This document shows, in pieces, positions 57,052-63,322 of a DNA stretch of 64,000 nucleotides (the first letter of the stretch is position 1; the number at the start of each line of letters is the position of its first letter). The translations under genes and the position numbers were made by a program. Location of the stretch: contig NCJG01000001.1 in the NCBI GenBank assembly GCA_002282385.1, positions 1 to 64,000 of the forward strand, in the 5' to 3' direction. Under the pieces are notes generated by a model. It made no database searches, was not told where the DNA came from, and saw only the letters and a list, made by a program, of their open reading frames with translations. The stretch is from Sphingomonadales bacterium 39-57-19. GTDB taxonomy: Bacteria > Pseudomonadota > Alphaproteobacteria > Sphingomonadales > Sphingomonadaceae.

Positions 57052-57140
57052 GTTGGTACTACCCCTTCAAAATTAAGGCTTTTGGCCGGATGGGGAAGAC
57101 GACACGGTAGGCGCTTACTGCAACCCATGAAACGCGCGTC

Positions 57141-57203
57141 AAACCAGCGTAAAAGCGGGAGATTCGTTTGCTGGCCGCGCCTTAGCGCGGATGGGGTGGG
57201 GGT
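57141..57203 (+). repeat. 63-bp dispersed repeat, copy A
   Basis: It matches copy B at 57556-57618 at 50 of 63 positions. It begins AAACCAGCGTAAAAGCGG. CCAGC near its start pairs with GCTGG at 57170-57174, and a perfect hairpin CCGCGC-CTTA-GCGCGG sits at 57175-57190. Changes in copy B partly preserve a stem, which suggests the fold matters. Confidence 0.7.
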
Positions 57204-57231
57204 GCAAGGTGGCGACGGGGGGTATTTTGGC

Positions 57232-57255
57232 GCACGAAGGCACGAAGGCACGAAG
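57232..57255 (+). repeat. Tandem GCACGAAG octamer, three copies
   Basis: Three perfect head-to-tail copies of GCACGAAG occupy 57232-57255. A short simple repeat, probably from slippage, in non-coding DNA. Confidence 0.75.
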
Positions 57256-57555
57256 GGGCGGCTGCGATTGGTATACGAACGGCTCGTATACGAAGAATTG
57301 GACTCGGTTTATTTGCTGACCTTTGTAACGTGGAAAAGCCAAAGCGAGGCACTGCCGGGATTGGTCCAAGTCGTCGAGGTGCGCACCTACAAAGGGCATA
57401 TGGTGTACACTGCTATCCGTCGCTGGGTTAAATTACCCAGCTACCCCGGTGCCCAGCTCACTTTGGCCAAAACGGTTGTGTTTTGCGTAGCGGCATTTTG
57501 GCAGCGCTTAGCTATTGAAGCTTCGGTTGTTCGCAGTTGAGCGCAAGGGGGCGGA

Positions 57556-57618
57556 AAACCAGCATAAAAGCGGAATATTCATTTGCTGGCCACAGCTTCG
57601 CTGGAATGGGGTGGAGTT
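57556..57618 (+). repeat. 63-bp dispersed repeat, copy B
   Basis: Second copy of the element at 57141. It keeps AAACCAGC...GCTGG and has a smaller hairpin CAGC-TTC-GCTG (57593-57603) where copy A has the CCGCGC stem. It lies 146 bp before the ParB-like gene and may mark the left boundary of the acquired cassette. Confidence 0.7.
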
Positions 57619-57763
57619 TACAAGTGGTGGGCAGGTTAGCCGATGGGTTATAAATACAATGGATATCTTATCACTTATTTAAAGTTTAGTTTCCAGGTTA
57701 CCTTATCGAATTCATGATCAAAAGATTAACAATCCGTCCGTTCTTGTCTTTTAGGGGGAGCAC

Positions 57764-59053
57764 ATGTCATATCAGGCGATAAATGTCGAAAGTCTATCTG
57801 TTAACAGAGCGAACGACCGGCACGGAGAATTAGCGAACGAGACAGCCGCAATTTCTCAGCTTTTTCATATGCGTGAGGCGCATATGAAAAAACTTGCATC
57901 AGATATTGTATCGGAGGGACAAATATACGATCCGCCGCTCGTTTCTGTCGATGGTGATGGATATATTGTATTTGACGGCAACCGAAGGCTAACTTGCTAT
58001 AAGCTTATTTTAAATCCTAATTTGGCGCCCTCCCAAGAACTACAATCTTATTTTCAGCGTTTGCATGATAATTGGGAAGGTGATCTTCCAGCTGAAGTTG
58101 TATGCCAAATTGAGAACGACCGAGACCGAATCGATGCAATCCTGTTTCGACGTCATACTGGCTCTCAAGGTGGTGTAGGCCAGTCAACATGGGACGATCG
58201 AGCAAAGCGGAACTTCATTGAACGCACGGGACGCGGCGGACGAATCGATGTTGCCGACGAAGTGGAGCGATTACTTCAGGAAGAGGATATGCTCCCAGAG
58301 AGCAACATTCCCCGCTCGACCTTAAATCGTCTACTTTCTTCTGAGGCGAACAGGACTCGGCTAGGAATTAGCGTTCAGGGAAATCAATTTCAAATTACTC
58401 ACAGACGAGATATCGTTGTAAGGGCTCTCGCGCGCATCGCCGCGGATTTGGCAGGGCGCCAGATTGTGCTTGGTGACCTCTGGGATAACCACGGCAAACG
58501 AACTTACCTCAATCAGTTAGAAAACGCGAGATTGCTTCCAAGAGACGAAGATGCCTTGGCTGTTGGTCATCAGCAGCAGCGAGCGAGGCGGAATCGGTCT
58601 GGCCAGCGTAGGCCACAAGCTGAGATACCTCAGCAGACCTTCATCCCGCATGACGCACCCCAAATCGCTTGGGCTCGAGAGCAGCAACGTGCACGTGCTA
58701 TTTGGGAGGAACTACAAACACTAGAACTCGCTCGATATCCTAATGCGGTATCTGCTCTTATGCGGATTTTGCTCGAGCTTGGAGTTGAGGATTACATAAG
58801 TGAACATGAGCTTCGAGAAGGAGAAGGGCTTGCCCAAAAATTCCGAATTGTCGCAGATCACTTGTTCGACCGGGGTTTTCTTGACGAAGAATATAGAAAT
58901 GAATTGGAACGGCTACGGCAGCACGAGGAATTGATTTCGATAAGAAGTATGCAGCGATTTGTTCACTCCGCTACTTTTGCACCAATGCGTACTGAATTGA
59001 TTGCCTATTGGGCGAGGCTAAATCGCTTTCTAGTTTCTTGTCTGGGCAGATAA
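57764..59053 (+). CDS. ParB/sulfiredoxin-fold protein, probable defence component (429 aa)
   Basis: The N-terminal 130 residues resemble the ParB/Srx nucleotide-binding fold: 'MREAHMKKLASDIVSEGQI' (about 36-54), 'DPPLVSVDGDGYIVF' and the signature D71-GNRRL-T, equivalent to the ParB box II. 'LFRRHTGSQGGVGQSTW' (about 127-143) continues the pattern seen in ParB-like proteins of mobile elements. The middle is basic and Gln/Arg-rich (about 265-300). The C-terminus (about 305-429) is helical. I cannot name a family. Base composition is visibly more AT-rich, with more AGA and ATA codons than neighbours, suggesting transfer. AGGGGGAG precedes the ATG. It is followed after 17 bp by the DpnI-like nuclease gene and is probably its partner. 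Confidence 0.75.
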   Translation: MSYQAINVESLSVNRANDRHGELANETAAISQLFHMREAHMKKLASDIVSEGQIYDPPLVSVDGDGYIVFDGNRRLTCYKLILNPNLAPSQELQSYFQRLHDNWEGDLPAEVVCQIENDRDRIDAILFRRHTGSQGGVGQSTWDDRAKRNFIERTGRGGRIDVADEVERLLQEEDMLPESNIPRSTLNRLLSSEANRTRLGISVQGNQFQITHRRDIVVRALARIAADLAGRQIVLGDLWDNHGKRTYLNQLENARLLPRDEDALAVGHQQQRARRNRSGQRRPQAEIPQQTFIPHDAPQIAWAREQQRARAIWEELQTLELARYPNAVSALMRILLELGVEDYISEHELREGEGLAQKFRIVADHLFDRGFLDEEYRNELERLRQHEELISIRSMQRFVHSATFAPMRTELIAYWARLNRFLVSCLGR

Positions 59054-59070
59054 CGGAGGAACACAGTCGC

Positions 59071-59520
59071 GTGGCTACTTTGAAGCAGGAATTAGGTGCG
59101 TTTGGGGAACGCATTGTAGCAAAGGCATGTGCATGTCCGCGTTGTAAGAAACTAGGCACGTTGGTTCGGCTGCCTACAAACTTCAAATGCGCAGATCTGG
59201 TATGCGATTTTTGTGGCTTTCTCGGTCAAGTAAAAGCATCCACCGTTAAAGATCCAAGTCGCCTTCCTTCTCAGATTTTAGGAGCCGCATGGGGTCCTCA
59301 GAAAGCACGTATGGACGCTGCCATATATTTCCCTCTTTATCTGGTGCTGGCTACAGCAGATTTAAAGGAATATGGGATTTATTATTTGTCGGCGGATTTG
59401 CAAACGGAGGAGCTCTTTGTTCCGCGTTCACCGCTATCCGAAACTGCAAGGCGTGCGGGATGGCAAGGTTTCTATTATAATATCAAAGCCATTCATGACC
59501 GGTTCGTTCGTTTGGTTTGA
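59071..59520 (+). CDS. DpnI-like restriction endonuclease catalytic domain, stand-alone (149 aa)
   Basis: Resembles the N-terminal catalytic domain of DpnI, which cuts N6-methyladenine GATC. Shared features in order: 'CPRC' (C22, C25) and 'CDFC' (C45, C48), which would hold zinc; D42 and the segment Q53-V-K55 matching the PD-(D/E)xK core; and 'SPLSETARRAGWQGFYYNI' (120-138), very close to the corresponding DpnI stretch. DpnI has about 254 residues, and its C-terminal winged helix, which adds methyl-DNA binding, is absent here. The usual acidic residue before xK is Gln. GTG at 59071 is favoured by GGAGG at 59055-59059; a longer TTG form at 59008 overlaps the previous gene. Activity and specificity are inferred. 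Confidence 0.78.
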   Translation: MATLKQELGAFGERIVAKACACPRCKKLGTLVRLPTNFKCADLVCDFCGFLGQVKASTVKDPSRLPSQILGAAWGPQKARMDAAIYFPLYLVLATADLKEYGIYYLSADLQTEELFVPRSPLSETARRAGWQGFYYNIKAIHDRFVRLV

Positions 59521-59552
59521 CGCGGCAATTATCTCACTATGTGCATCAGCAT

Positions 59553-59825
59553 TTAACTTAAAACCCGCACCCGTTTATCGCGCGCCGTTTGGCCGTGGGT
59601 GATTTCCAACTGGCTGACCGATATCCCCAACAGCTTGGCCAAGATGGCCAGCACGGCCTTGTTCGCCTTGCCATCCTCCGGCGCGGTGCGGAGCCAGATT
59701 TTGAGGGCGCCGTTTTCAATCGCGGCCTTTTCGACCTTCGCCCCCGGCACCACGCGCAGCGATAGCTCGTTTCGGTCGGATATCAGCGCGGTGATCGCTT
59801 GCGGGGTCAATGTGGGGGCAGCCAT
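59553..59825 (-). CDS. DUF167 (YggU-like) protein (90 aa)
   Basis: A small alpha/beta protein of the DUF167 family. 'LRVVPGAKVEKAAIENGALKIWLRTAPEDGKANKAVLAILAKLLGI' includes the near-universal 'APxxGKAN' motif. Function is unknown. It lies just after the nuclease gene in opposite orientation, returning to the base composition of the core genome, so it marks the right edge of the cassette. Confidence 0.9.
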   Translation of the reverse strand: MAAPTLTPQAITALISDRNELSLRVVPGAKVEKAAIENGALKIWLRTAPEDGKANKAVLAILAKLLGISVSQLEITHGQTARDKRVRVLS

Positions 59826-59875
59826 GTTGTTGCGATAGCGCAGGAACCGCTTTCCTACAACATTCCATATAGGTT

Positions 59876-59892
59876 ATTATATTTTATATAAT
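59876..59892 (+). promoter_or_regulatory. TATAAT -10 element inside an ATTATA-N5-TATAAT inverted repeat
   Basis: A consensus -10 (59887-59892) precedes the next gene's ATG by 17 bp and forms the right arm of a 6-bp inverted repeat. The -35 region around 59863-59869 is weak (TTCCAT-like). GGAG at 59901-59904 serves as ribosome-binding site. Confidence 0.5.
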
Positions 59893-59909
59893 GAACCAAT
59901 GGAGTTTAT

Positions 59910-60644
59910 ATGGCACGCAAATCCGACGCTTCCGACCTTGTTTTAACAATCTTGCCCGATTCGGCGCAGCGCATTCCGTCCGGGCCACGGGTGAACCGCA
60001 ACCGTTTGATGCCCGGATTGCGCGTACGGCATGACGGGTGGACCGAGGAGCGGACGCAGCGCTTTTTTGATGCGTTGGGCCATACCGGTTGTGTGCGCGA
60101 TGCGGCGCGGGTGGCGGGGGTTTCCAATGCGGCGGCGTACCGGATGAAGCGGCGCTTTCCGTTATTCGCGCAAGCGTGGGAGGATGCGTTGGACCGGGCG
60201 GGGCAAGGGTTGTTGGCGATTGCGTATAAGCGCGCGGTGGAGGGGCGGGAGACCGTGATCATCCGCGGCGGGCAGGAATATGAACGGCGGATTACGCCGT
60301 CGGACGCGATCCTTGGCCTATTGCTCAAACGCGGGGATATGGCGGGGACGGGCGCGCTGCCGGGGGGCAAATTGCCCGATGATCTGTTAAGCTTTGACGA
60401 ATGGCAACGGCACAAGCGCTTTGACGATTATGGGCGCAAGATCGAGATTGAGGACCCCGAAAAATCGAAGGATAAGTTCATCGCCAAGCTGACCGAAATC
60501 CGCAACCGGTTGAAAGAATATGGGCGGCAGGGCGTGGCATGCCCCACCTGTCATCAACCGCTGCCCGACGGGTGGCCGAACCAGTCCATGGCGGTGCTGG
60601 TGGCGACGGGATTGGTGGGCCCTGACGAGCTGTTTGATGATTAG
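59910..60644 (+). CDS. HTH protein, terminase-small-subunit-like, unknown function (244 aa)
   Basis: Residues about 48-80 contain a helix-turn-helix ('FFDALGHTGCVRDAARVAGVSNAAAYRMKRRFP') resembling those of phage terminase small subunits and transposase N-termini. A central segment (about 90-150) with 'GQEYERRITPSDAILGLLLKRGDM' follows, then a charged helix. A CPTCHQPLP knuckle near 211 is a single Cys pair. I do not recognise a function. Its TAG stop lies in the 17-bp MITE-end remnant shared with the convergent GGDEF-EAL gene. Confidence 0.65.
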   Translation: MARKSDASDLVLTILPDSAQRIPSGPRVNRNRLMPGLRVRHDGWTEERTQRFFDALGHTGCVRDAARVAGVSNAAAYRMKRRFPLFAQAWEDALDRAGQGLLAIAYKRAVEGRETVIIRGGQEYERRITPSDAILGLLLKRGDMAGTGALPGGKLPDDLLSFDEWQRHKRFDDYGRKIEIEDPEKSKDKFIAKLTEIRNRLKEYGRQGVACPTCHQPLPDGWPNQSMAVLVATGLVGPDELFDD

Positions 60645-60657
60645 GTCCTGACCCTAG
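60641..60657. mobile_element. Solo 17-bp remnant of the MITE terminal repeat
   Basis: TTAGGTCCTGACCCTAG matches the outer end of the MITE at 32309-32515 (TAGGTCCTGACCCT versus the left-arm complement). It contains TAG stops for both convergent genes (60642-60644 on plus, and CTA at 60654-60656 on minus). It is probably what is left after loss of the interior, or an independent short sequence under the same constraint. Confidence 0.6.
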
Positions 60658-62837
60658 TCGCGGAAATTCATCGTCGCCGGGTTGCTGATCGCGGCGACTT
60701 GCATGAATTGCGGTTTGCTTTTGGGGGTGTCGTCATTGGTTTGGGTGACGCTGCTCAAGAGATAGGACGAAATGCGGTGGCGCGTGCACAGGCCGCCTGC
60801 GCCATCGCTGACCAACGGGGTTTCAAATTCGACCGCGATCATCGCGTCCTGCGCGTGGGTTACCGTGCACACGACCAACTGCCCTTCGCATAAATCGAGC
60901 ACGAGGATGGTGCCTTTGGGGACGTTCAGCAAGCCATCGATCAGCGCGCCGGTTTTCGACAGGTTGCGCATCAATGCTTCATAACGGTGGTCGTCATGAA
61001 TTACGCCAATGCGGCGGAACACCGAACGGCGTTCGGAACGGTGGCGCAGCGGGCCGTCGGGGATGATGCGCAATTCGCCGTTCGCCATCTGGGCCAGCAG
61101 GGTTTCCTGATCCATCGCCTTTGCGTAAATCCACCCTTGGATAAGGCGTGCGTTCATGCCGCGCACCACTTCAAGCTGGTCAAATGCCTCTACGCCTTCG
61201 ACCGTGGTTTCCATGCCCAATGCATCGGACAGGCTGATGATCGCCGCGATGATTTTGGCGCTGTTCTGATCCTTTTGCGTGCAGCCTTCGACAAAGGTGC
61301 GGTCGACCTTGATCTTGTCAAACGGGGCGGAGCGCAAATAGCTTAACGACGAATAGCCGGTGCCAAAGTCATCGAGCGCAAGGCGAACGCCAAGGTCTTT
61401 GAGTGCGCGGAAGATGTCGTCAATGGTCTCAAAATCGCCCATGAACACGCTTTCGGTGAGTTCAAGTTCCAGACGGTCGGGGTCAAGCCCCGACGTCCGC
61501 AGCGCATGTGCGACGGTGTCGATAAGTTCCGAATGCGCGAATTGGGCGGCGGACACATTGACGGCGACGCGCACCGATTTGGGCCACGCCATCGCGTCCA
61601 TGCACGCGCGGTTCAGCGCCCATGCGCCGATATGGTTGATAAGGTCGGATTCCTCGGCAATCGGCACGAAGACGCTGGGGCTAATCGGTCCGCGTTCGGG
61701 GTGGTCCCAGCGCATCAATGCTTCGAATGCGACCACGACATTGTCATCGGTGCGGACGACGGGTTGGTAATGCAGCGCCAGCGCTTCGTTGGCGAGGGCA
61801 TCGCGCAGGCCCTCTTCAAGCAAGCTGCGTTCGGCGGCTTCGTCTTTGAAATGGGCTGCGTAAAAGCGGAATTGCCCGCGCCCGCCGTTCTTTGCGGCGT
61901 ATAGCGCAAGGTCGGCATTTTCGATAAGCTCCAACTTATCAACGCCGTCAAAGGGCGAAATGGCGATGCCGATCGAGATGCCGATGGTCGCGCGCTTGTC
62001 GTCGATGATGTAGGGCTGCGAGAGGATCTGGATGAGCTTGTTCGACAGTTCGCCCAGCTTGCCGCGGTCGTCACAGTCGGGAAGGATGATCTGGAATTCA
62101 TCGCCACCCAAGCGGCCAATCTCGCCCACGCTGCCGACGGCGCGTTCAAGGCGGCGGGCCACCTGGCGCAGCAACGTATCACCCGCCGTATGGCCAAGCG
62201 TATCGTTGACGACTTTGAACCGGTCGAGGTCAAGCATCATCAGCGCGCAGCTGCGCTTGGTGGACTTATACGCGGCGAGCGTGCTCTCCAGCTTTTTGTC
62301 CATGCGGTGGCGGTTCGCAAGGCCCGTGAGCGAGTCAAATTCGGCGAGGCGCGAGTCGACAAGCTTGCGCTCATGTTCGGTGGTGATGTCCTTTGCGCTG
62401 CCGCGATAGCCTTGGAACGCGCCGGCTTTGTCAAACTTCGGATGGCCCGATAACGACCACCATGTTTGCCGGCCACGGCCCTGTGGTTGGCTGAGGGTAA
62501 AGCGCACCGTCTGGTCGACGATCCTGTTGCGCGCGGTCAGCTGAAAATTCAGCGGCCTTTCCGAACGCTCCCCGGGCGTCGAGGCGTCGGTTTCAAACAA
62601 ATGCGTGATGGGGTGCGCGAGCAATTCCTGCACGGGCCGGTTCAGCTTTTCAGCCGCGTTTTCGGAGATATAGATCAACCGCCCTTGGGCATCGGTGGCC
62701 CATAGCCAGCCAATACCGGCATGTTCGAAGTCGTCGAGAATTTCGAGGCGCCGGTTGGTATCGGCAGGCGTAATGACGGCCGCAGAATCGCGACCCGAAA
62801 AACGTCTTAATAAACGCGAAACAGCCATCGTTACCAA
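60654..62837 (-). CDS. PAS-GGDEF-EAL-PilZ cyclic-di-GMP protein (727 aa)
   Basis: Order of domains: PAS at about 35-150 ('IGWLWATDAQGRLIYISENAAEKLNR'), GGDEF at about 165-330 with the intact 'RLGGDEFQIIL', EAL at about 345-595 with 'AFEALMRWDHPERG', 'DDFGTGYSSLSYLR', 'KVDRTFVEG' and 'TVEGVE', and a C-terminal PilZ-like domain with 'RSERRSVFRR' and 'NLSKTGALIDG', which could bind c-di-GMP. Both cyclase and phosphodiesterase motifs look intact. No RxxD inhibitory site precedes GGDEF. ATG at 62837 or 62828 is possible. It is convergent with the HTH gene. No membrane segment is seen, so it acts in the cytoplasm. Confidence 0.9.
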   Translation of the reverse strand: MVTMAVSRLLRRFSGRDSAAVITPADTNRRLEILDDFEHAGIGWLWATDAQGRLIYISENAAEKLNRPVQELLAHPITHLFETDASTPGERSERPLNFQLTARNRIVDQTVRFTLSQPQGRGRQTWWSLSGHPKFDKAGAFQGYRGSAKDITTEHERKLVDSRLAEFDSLTGLANRHRMDKKLESTLAAYKSTKRSCALMMLDLDRFKVVNDTLGHTAGDTLLRQVARRLERAVGSVGEIGRLGGDEFQIILPDCDDRGKLGELSNKLIQILSQPYIIDDKRATIGISIGIAISPFDGVDKLELIENADLALYAAKNGGRGQFRFYAAHFKDEAAERSLLEEGLRDALANEALALHYQPVVRTDDNVVVAFEALMRWDHPERGPISPSVFVPIAEESDLINHIGAWALNRACMDAMAWPKSVRVAVNVSAAQFAHSELIDTVAHALRTSGLDPDRLELELTESVFMGDFETIDDIFRALKDLGVRLALDDFGTGYSSLSYLRSAPFDKIKVDRTFVEGCTQKDQNSAKIIAAIISLSDALGMETTVEGVEAFDQLEVVRGMNARLIQGWIYAKAMDQETLLAQMANGELRIIPDGPLRHRSERRSVFRRIGVIHDDHRYEALMRNLSKTGALIDGLLNVPKGTILVLDLCEGQLVVCTVTHAQDAMIAVEFETPLVSDGAGGLCTRHRISSYLLSSVTQTNDDTPKSKPQFMQVAAISNPATMNFRD

Positions 62838-62980
62838 TCATCGCCAATGTGCAGGCGGATACGCCTCATCCCATGTGACTGAATTTAAACGGCTTTGGTT
62901 AATATGTTGCTAATGACTGCAACGCTACGGAACGCGTATATTTTTAAAGCGCGACATGGCTTTGCATCGCCCCCGTGCGT
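62838..62980 (-). other. Promoter region of the GGDEF-EAL gene
   Basis: This 143-bp gap contains AT-rich stretches ('aatatgttgctaatg', 'tatatttttaaagcg') suited to a minus-strand promoter. I see no clear paired hexamers, repeat or small gene. Confidence 0.35.
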
Positions 62981-63166
62981 TTATCCTTGCCGCAAAAGAT
63001 CGGTAACCTCGTCCAACGTTCCGCGCACGCGCAGCAGCTGATCCTTGCCAAAGACGATCAGGCATTCATTATCGGCATTGTCGGCGGTGCGGACGAATTG
63101 GACTATTTCGGGGTTCACCGATATGCGCTGGCCGCGATTGTCGGTCATCATAACGAAGGGGATCAT
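62981..63166 (-). CDS. Small FlbD-like conserved protein (61 aa)
   Basis: The short beta-rich pattern 'RGQRISVNPEIVQFVRTADN...CLIVFGKDQLLRVRGTLDEVTDLL' resembles FlbD/YlzI-type small proteins, which are about 60-70 aa and occur near flagellar genes in other bacteria, though no flagellar genes are here. The start at 63166 is supported by AAAGGA (complement of 63173-63178) at proper spacing. It is upstream of and on the same strand as the GGDEF-EAL gene. Function is unknown. Confidence 0.65.
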   Translation of the reverse strand: MIPFVMMTDNRGQRISVNPEIVQFVRTADNADNECLIVFGKDQLLRVRGTLDEVTDLLRQG

Positions 63167-63322
63167 GGGCTGTCCTTTGGAGAGAATTTCGCCGGTGCCT
63201 TAACATAGGTGGACCTTGCGCTCTAACACTTCCGTCCGCCGCGCCTTTCTCACGCAAGCTGGTTCAGCCGCGCCCATTGGTTTGGCTGGCTTTTCCGCGC
63301 AAGCGCCGCTACAGCGACGGCG
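63167..63322. other. Divergent intergenic region before the fluoride exporter
   Basis: This 156-bp stretch separates the small FlbD-like gene (minus) from crcB (plus) and should carry both promoters. I looked for a fluoride riboswitch upstream of crcB and did not recognise its conserved core, so control by another means is likely. Confidence 0.4.

Follow-up and report, generated by a model that had tools for sequence, protein, structure and literature searches.

The gene pair and the acnA-crcB interval

Two adjacent genes, designated ORF A and ORF B, were analyzed within the window, i.e., the 64,000 nucleotides at positions 1 to 64,000 of contig NCJG01000001.1 from Sphingomonadales bacterium 39-57-19. 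Both reading frames are intact and, as reported in a preliminary description, lie on the same strand with a gap of 17 nt. The same description had considered the pair more AT-rich than its surroundings, which is borne out by a GC content of 48.1% compared to 57.1% for the window; among tiles of equal length, the pair ranks within the lowest 0.3%. The GTG start of ORF B agrees with the N terminus conserved in an alignment of 17 relatives. The features of the region are as follows:

57136-57212, + strand: acnA-leader element, 77 bp, the last sequence common to congeners before the insert
57551-57627, + strand: second acnA-leader copy, diverged (75%), inside the foreign segment and close to its left edge
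57764-59053, + strand: ORF A, 429 aa, ATG start
57974-57994, + strand: DGNRRLT motif of ORF A, residues 71-77 (from homologue alignment)
59055-59059, + strand: GGAGG ribosome-binding site of ORF B, inside the 17-nt gap (from sequence)
59071-59520, + strand: ORF B, 149 aa, GTG start
59194-59235, + strand: active-site stretch of ORF B, D-x10-Q-x-K (from alignment), the counterpart of D53-E64-K66 in DpnI
59194-59196, 59227-59229, and 59233-59235, + strand: active-site residues D42, Q53, and K55 of ORF B, respectively (from alignment)
59434-59469, + strand: methyl-adenine cleft of ORF B (from alignment), with L122, R128, W131, and G133 corresponding to L129, R135, W138, and G140 of DpnI

The foreign segment starts at position 57213, where homology to congeners ends. 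The core of the acnA-leader element occurs in the whole genome only in the two copies listed above, and just the first of these was seen in the congeners examined. In congener G710, homology resumes at position 59560, and other genes fill the slot as far as a yggU remnant, while in congener G771 (L105), the next gene after acnA is crcB, at most about 250 bp away, so that the interval is nearly empty. The acnA-crcB interval (57213-63300) is variable, with cargo that differs among the congeners examined, and the simplest history would be that of a variable slot, the contents of which are exchanged through flanking homology. Scans for promoters and terminators revealed nothing above chance. Downstream of ORF B, at 59910-60644, the window encodes a helix-turn-helix or small-terminase-like protein of the RHDGWT.ER type, and a protein of this type is also found downstream of the ORF B relative at L059 (7197-7769); these proteins probably represent a common family of the lineage.

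ORF A and the PD-Lambda-5_A family

Based on sequence comparison, ORF A is a member of the PD-Lambda-5_A family, with a predicted ParB/Srx-like N terminus and an HEPN-like C terminus. While no Pfam domain scored above threshold, the PADLOC profile PD-Lambda-5_A (PDLC03998) matched residues 1-424, corresponding to the full length of the protein, with an E-value of 1.1e-68. In the predicted model (pLDDT 80), the N-terminal domain is ParB/sulfiredoxin-like, with a Foldseek probability of 1.0 to CDP-bound ParB. This agrees with the preliminary assignment of the protein to the ParB/Srx type through its DGNRRLT motif, within which GNRR (G72-N73-R74-R75) is invariant in an alignment of 12 homologues. 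The C-terminal domain is helical and gave weak matches to HEPN domains (Foldseek probability of about 0.5). Within the clade of ORF A, H401 is conserved, but the alignment contains no conserved Arg at the expected Rx4-6H spacing, i.e., the classical HEPN motif is not conserved. A ParB-HEPN fusion, Saro_3948, has been mentioned in a review of HEPN proteins (PMC3710099).

PD-Lambda-5 was discovered by functional selection in Escherichia coli, where it protects against phage (Vassallo et al. 2022, PMC9519451). ORF A is homologous to its A subunit over the full length, and ten more distant family members, labelled D12 in the tree, directly adjoin a D12 methyltransferase. In contrast, a tree of 26 family members groups ORF A and ten others in a single clade (support 100/100), and no D12 methyltransferase (the B subunit) was found beside ORF A or at any other locus of this clade. 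Wherever the host taxonomy is known, the clade members originate from Alphaproteobacteria. Furthermore, a search with PF02086 retrieved no D12/Dam gene from the entire host genome of ORF A, and in the window ORF A is followed by the DpnI-like gene instead. We regard this methyltransferase-less clade of PD-Lambda-5_A as a modestly new variant rather than a categorically new kind of system; no prior description of it was found in the literature searched, although one may exist elsewhere.

The closer known relative of ORF A, as judged from profile matches, is thus PD-Lambda-5_A, which was not named in the preliminary description. The analogy to GmrSD that was drawn there instead is weak: the likeness is one of analogy and is confined to a defence protein having a ParB-like fold, whereas neither ORF A nor ORF B has a Pfam match to DUF262 or HNH (a single relative of ORF A matched DUF262 weakly, at 0.011).

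Homologues of ORF A were absent from the viral contigs searched, and phage records yielded one short unannotated contig at 45% as well as remote matches. The copy of the gene in Azospirillum ramasamyi (L003, 4001-6160) is split by an IS5-family insertion sequence.

ORF B as a stand-alone DpnI catalytic domain

ORF B is, as judged from its alignment and predicted structure, a stand-alone DpnI catalytic domain that has kept the methyl reader and whose metal site is a QxK variant. The resemblance to the catalytic domain of DpnI that had been proposed for the downstream protein is well supported by a match to the Pfam family DpnI (PF06044; 2.8e-13), by a match between the profile of the ORF B family and the sequence of the DpnI crystal structure (2.3e-10), and by the AlphaFold model (pLDDT 92.5), for which the best structural match is DpnI itself (4kyw; TMq 0.81, E 2.2e-8). 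The next-best Foldseek matches were BisI-family enzymes (NhoI and Eco15I; TM about 0.5-0.57), which are likewise small methyl-dependent PD-(D/E)xK nucleases but are m5C-dependent and have no sequence match to ORF B.

In R.DpnI, a type IIM m6A-dependent endonuclease, the active site is formed by Asp53, Glu64, and Lys66, and the two adenine methyl groups are held by Leu129, Arg135, and Trp138, packed on Gly140 (PMC4117772). ORF B shares with this enzyme the fold, the catalytic Asp and Lys, the zinc-type cysteines (CPxC..CDFC), and the methyl-binding cleft, of which L122, W131, and G133 are invariant, and R128 nearly so, in an alignment of 18 family sequences. It differs in lacking the C-terminal winged-helix m6A reader, since the protein ends at residue 149, just past the catalytic fold, compared to 254 residues in R.DpnI. 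It also differs in its catalytic triad, which is incomplete: Gln53 replaces the catalytic Glu64 in 18 of 18 aligned sequences. The earlier identification of the protein as DpnI-like stands.

As the Glu of the DpnI active site is a Gln across the whole family, the activity of ORF B is not certain. The invariant Q53 could mean that ORF B resembles an E64Q mutant, i.e., a catalytically dead protein that binds m6A-containing DNA, for example as a regulator or decoy. However, invariance extends to D42, K55, and the N-terminal Glu13, and the retention of the full catalytic core suggests catalysis. Moreover, PD-QXK catalytic domains have been named in Mrr-type nucleases (PMC11037411), which makes catalysis by ORF B plausible. 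We consider a dead binder unlikely, even if it is the least unlikely of the alternatives to the reading given below, and expect that ORF B should restrict Gm6ATC DNA. The solo D-QxK form of DpnI would represent a modestly new variant, not a categorically new kind of enzyme, and no prior description of a solo form was found in the literature searched, though it may exist elsewhere.

In the genome collection, 18 relatives of ORF B were identified that are 52-74% identical to it and are distributed over Alpha-, Beta-, and Gammaproteobacteria, Pelagibacter, Rickettsiales, Planctomycetota, and Rhodothermales. One locus on a plasmid, four additional genomes, and three contigs of proviral origin raise the total to 26 other ORF B loci. 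On the three proviral contigs from IMG/VR (L094, L095, and L096), the relatives appear to be cargo near terminase, capsid, or other phage genes; ORF B as a phage gene was nevertheless rejected, with no match in the phage records. Near-identical ORF B genes occur in three streamlined Pelagibacteraceae genomes of about 1 Mb (Pelagibacter; L015, L016, and L017), and the copy in L015 adjoins an array of pilin-like genes. With regard to the methylation background, a D12/Dam gene is absent from 6 of the 7 other ORF B-carrying genomes tested, while G737 combines an ORF B gene with a D12 methyltransferase. The host of ORF A and ORF B lacks a D12 gene but may methylate GATC through an enzyme of another type, and it encodes CcrM.

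Probable independence and proposed roles of the two genes

The preliminary description had proposed that the two genes form one defence system, a claim that their distribution speaks against. None of the 26 other ORF B loci contains an ORF A homologue in the flanking DNA, and ORF B is missing from the flanks of all 12 other loci of the ORF A clade, so that at none of these loci are homologues of the two genes adjacent, an outcome that the preliminary description itself had named as counting against its proposal. Genome G655 carries both genes, 634 kb apart. At the genome level, any ORF A homologue was found in 2 of the 22 other ORF B genomes compared to a background of 3.5% (p 0.18), and co-occurrence was rejected on this basis; a subset restricted to the family, in which 2 of 5 other ORF B genomes contain some ORF A homologue, never linked to ORF B, gave a p of 0.009, but this comparison was made post hoc and is not relied on.

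A dedicated two-component system, with ORF A as the sensor of the invader that licenses or recruits ORF B as its DpnI-like nuclease, is thus not supported, and we consider it improbable. The shared strand and low GC content, together with a 17-nt gap that includes a ribosome-binding site for ORF B, would fit such a system, and genes spaced this closely would be in keeping with a functional operon in this single genome; in addition, ORF B occupies the position in which relatives of ORF A have a methyltransferase. On the other hand, there is no second example among all these loci, the co-resident copies are unlinked, and relatives up to 74% identical to ORF B occur without ORF A. Since each gene occurs without the other in other genomes, ORF A and ORF B are most likely two independent defence genes and not one two-part system; they are probably co-transcribed without being obligate partners.

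A conserved partner of ORF B of any other kind was likewise rejected, as none recurs: DUF4145 proteins were found at two loci (L009 and L095) and adenine methyltransferases at two (L005 and L057), which are too few loci to claim a partnership with either. The DUF4145 proteins are encoded directly upstream of two distant relatives of ORF B (L009, 7218-7952; L095, 576-1280) and are possibly a recurring neighbour.

Relatives of both genes were found, separately, near known defence genes, in line with one part of the preliminary proposal. Loci of the ORF A clade include neighbours such as Gabija GajAB (L044), a type IIG enzyme (L040), and IetAS (L080), and one locus lies beside an integrase. Relatives of ORF B neighbour a type IIG enzyme (L005), an N6-methyltransferase (L057), an AspBHI-type modification-dependent enzyme (L046), a PD-T7-4-like DUF4145 protein (L009), an integrase, and prophage genes. 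These neighbours were listed locus by locus, as single cases rather than as a measure of enrichment. For ORF B, the defence context is partial, because many of its relatives adjoin housekeeping genes (thrS, leuA, ftsK, and ggt). Both ORF A and ORF B are foreign in composition and are probably defence genes.

The explanation we favor, and consider likely, is that ORF A and ORF B are two separate anti-invader genes in an exchanged acnA-crcB slot, with ORF B acting as an m6A-dependent endonuclease and ORF A as a methyltransferase-less relative of PD-Lambda-5_A. It draws on the observed or computed folds, families, conserved residues, and clade structure, on the lack of linkage, and on the absence of D12/Dam; from these we infer activity, specificity, a role in defence, and the assignment of sensor and effector roles within ORF A. 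Both genes would have been acquired horizontally and collected side by side in the slot. The Trp/Arg/Leu cleft in the zinc-bound DpnI fold of ORF B would read Gm6ATC through its paired methyl groups, and the D-QxK site of the protein would cut this DNA, so that incoming Dam-methylated DNA, for example from Dam-positive hosts or phages, would be attacked, while the host would be spared because it has no D12/Dam gene. In ORF A, the ParB/Srx domain (nucleotide-binding or nuclease) would probably sense invading DNA or its nucleotides and would be coupled to the fused helical HEPN-like effector domain, working without a methyltransferase for self-marking.

About as improbable as the two-component system is the possibility that the ORF A clade has lost its methyltransferase and uses the m6A methylation of GANTC by the host CcrM as self signal, with ORF B in the methyltransferase position being incidental or a second check for m6A. 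The restriction of methyltransferase-less loci to one clade, the alphaproteobacterial origin of its members of known host taxonomy, the presence of CcrM in the genome of the window, and the convergent orientation of the ORF A and CcrM genes in L043 would be consistent with this. However, CcrM is near-universal in this class, which renders the association uninformative, and a solo ORF A could just as well function with no self mark at all.

It is somewhat less probable still that ORF B is a selfish hitch-hiker without a role in defence that inserts behind expressed genes. Its scattering over several phyla at 52-74% identity and its location, in the same orientation, within a few bases downstream of thrS, leuA, and ggt are compatible with this idea. 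However, the gene was not seen to bring along a transposase or any other mobility function, and the restriction enzymes or prophage genes next to several ORF B loci are neighbours that one would expect for defence cargo. Least probable, and in our view very doubtful, is a combination in which a methyltransferase-less ORF A that reads CcrM methylation as self mark and an m6A-dependent nuclease, both in one operon, would attack wrongly methylated DNA from both sides.

The reading as two separate defence genes removes, for lack of support, a tempting new two-gene defence system. At the same time, an alphaproteobacterial clade of PD-Lambda-5_A that manages without a methyltransferase raises the question of what marks self, and the widespread family of solo DpnI catalytic domains, in which the site is D-QxK and a second reader domain is absent, may represent a minimal m6A-dependent nuclease.
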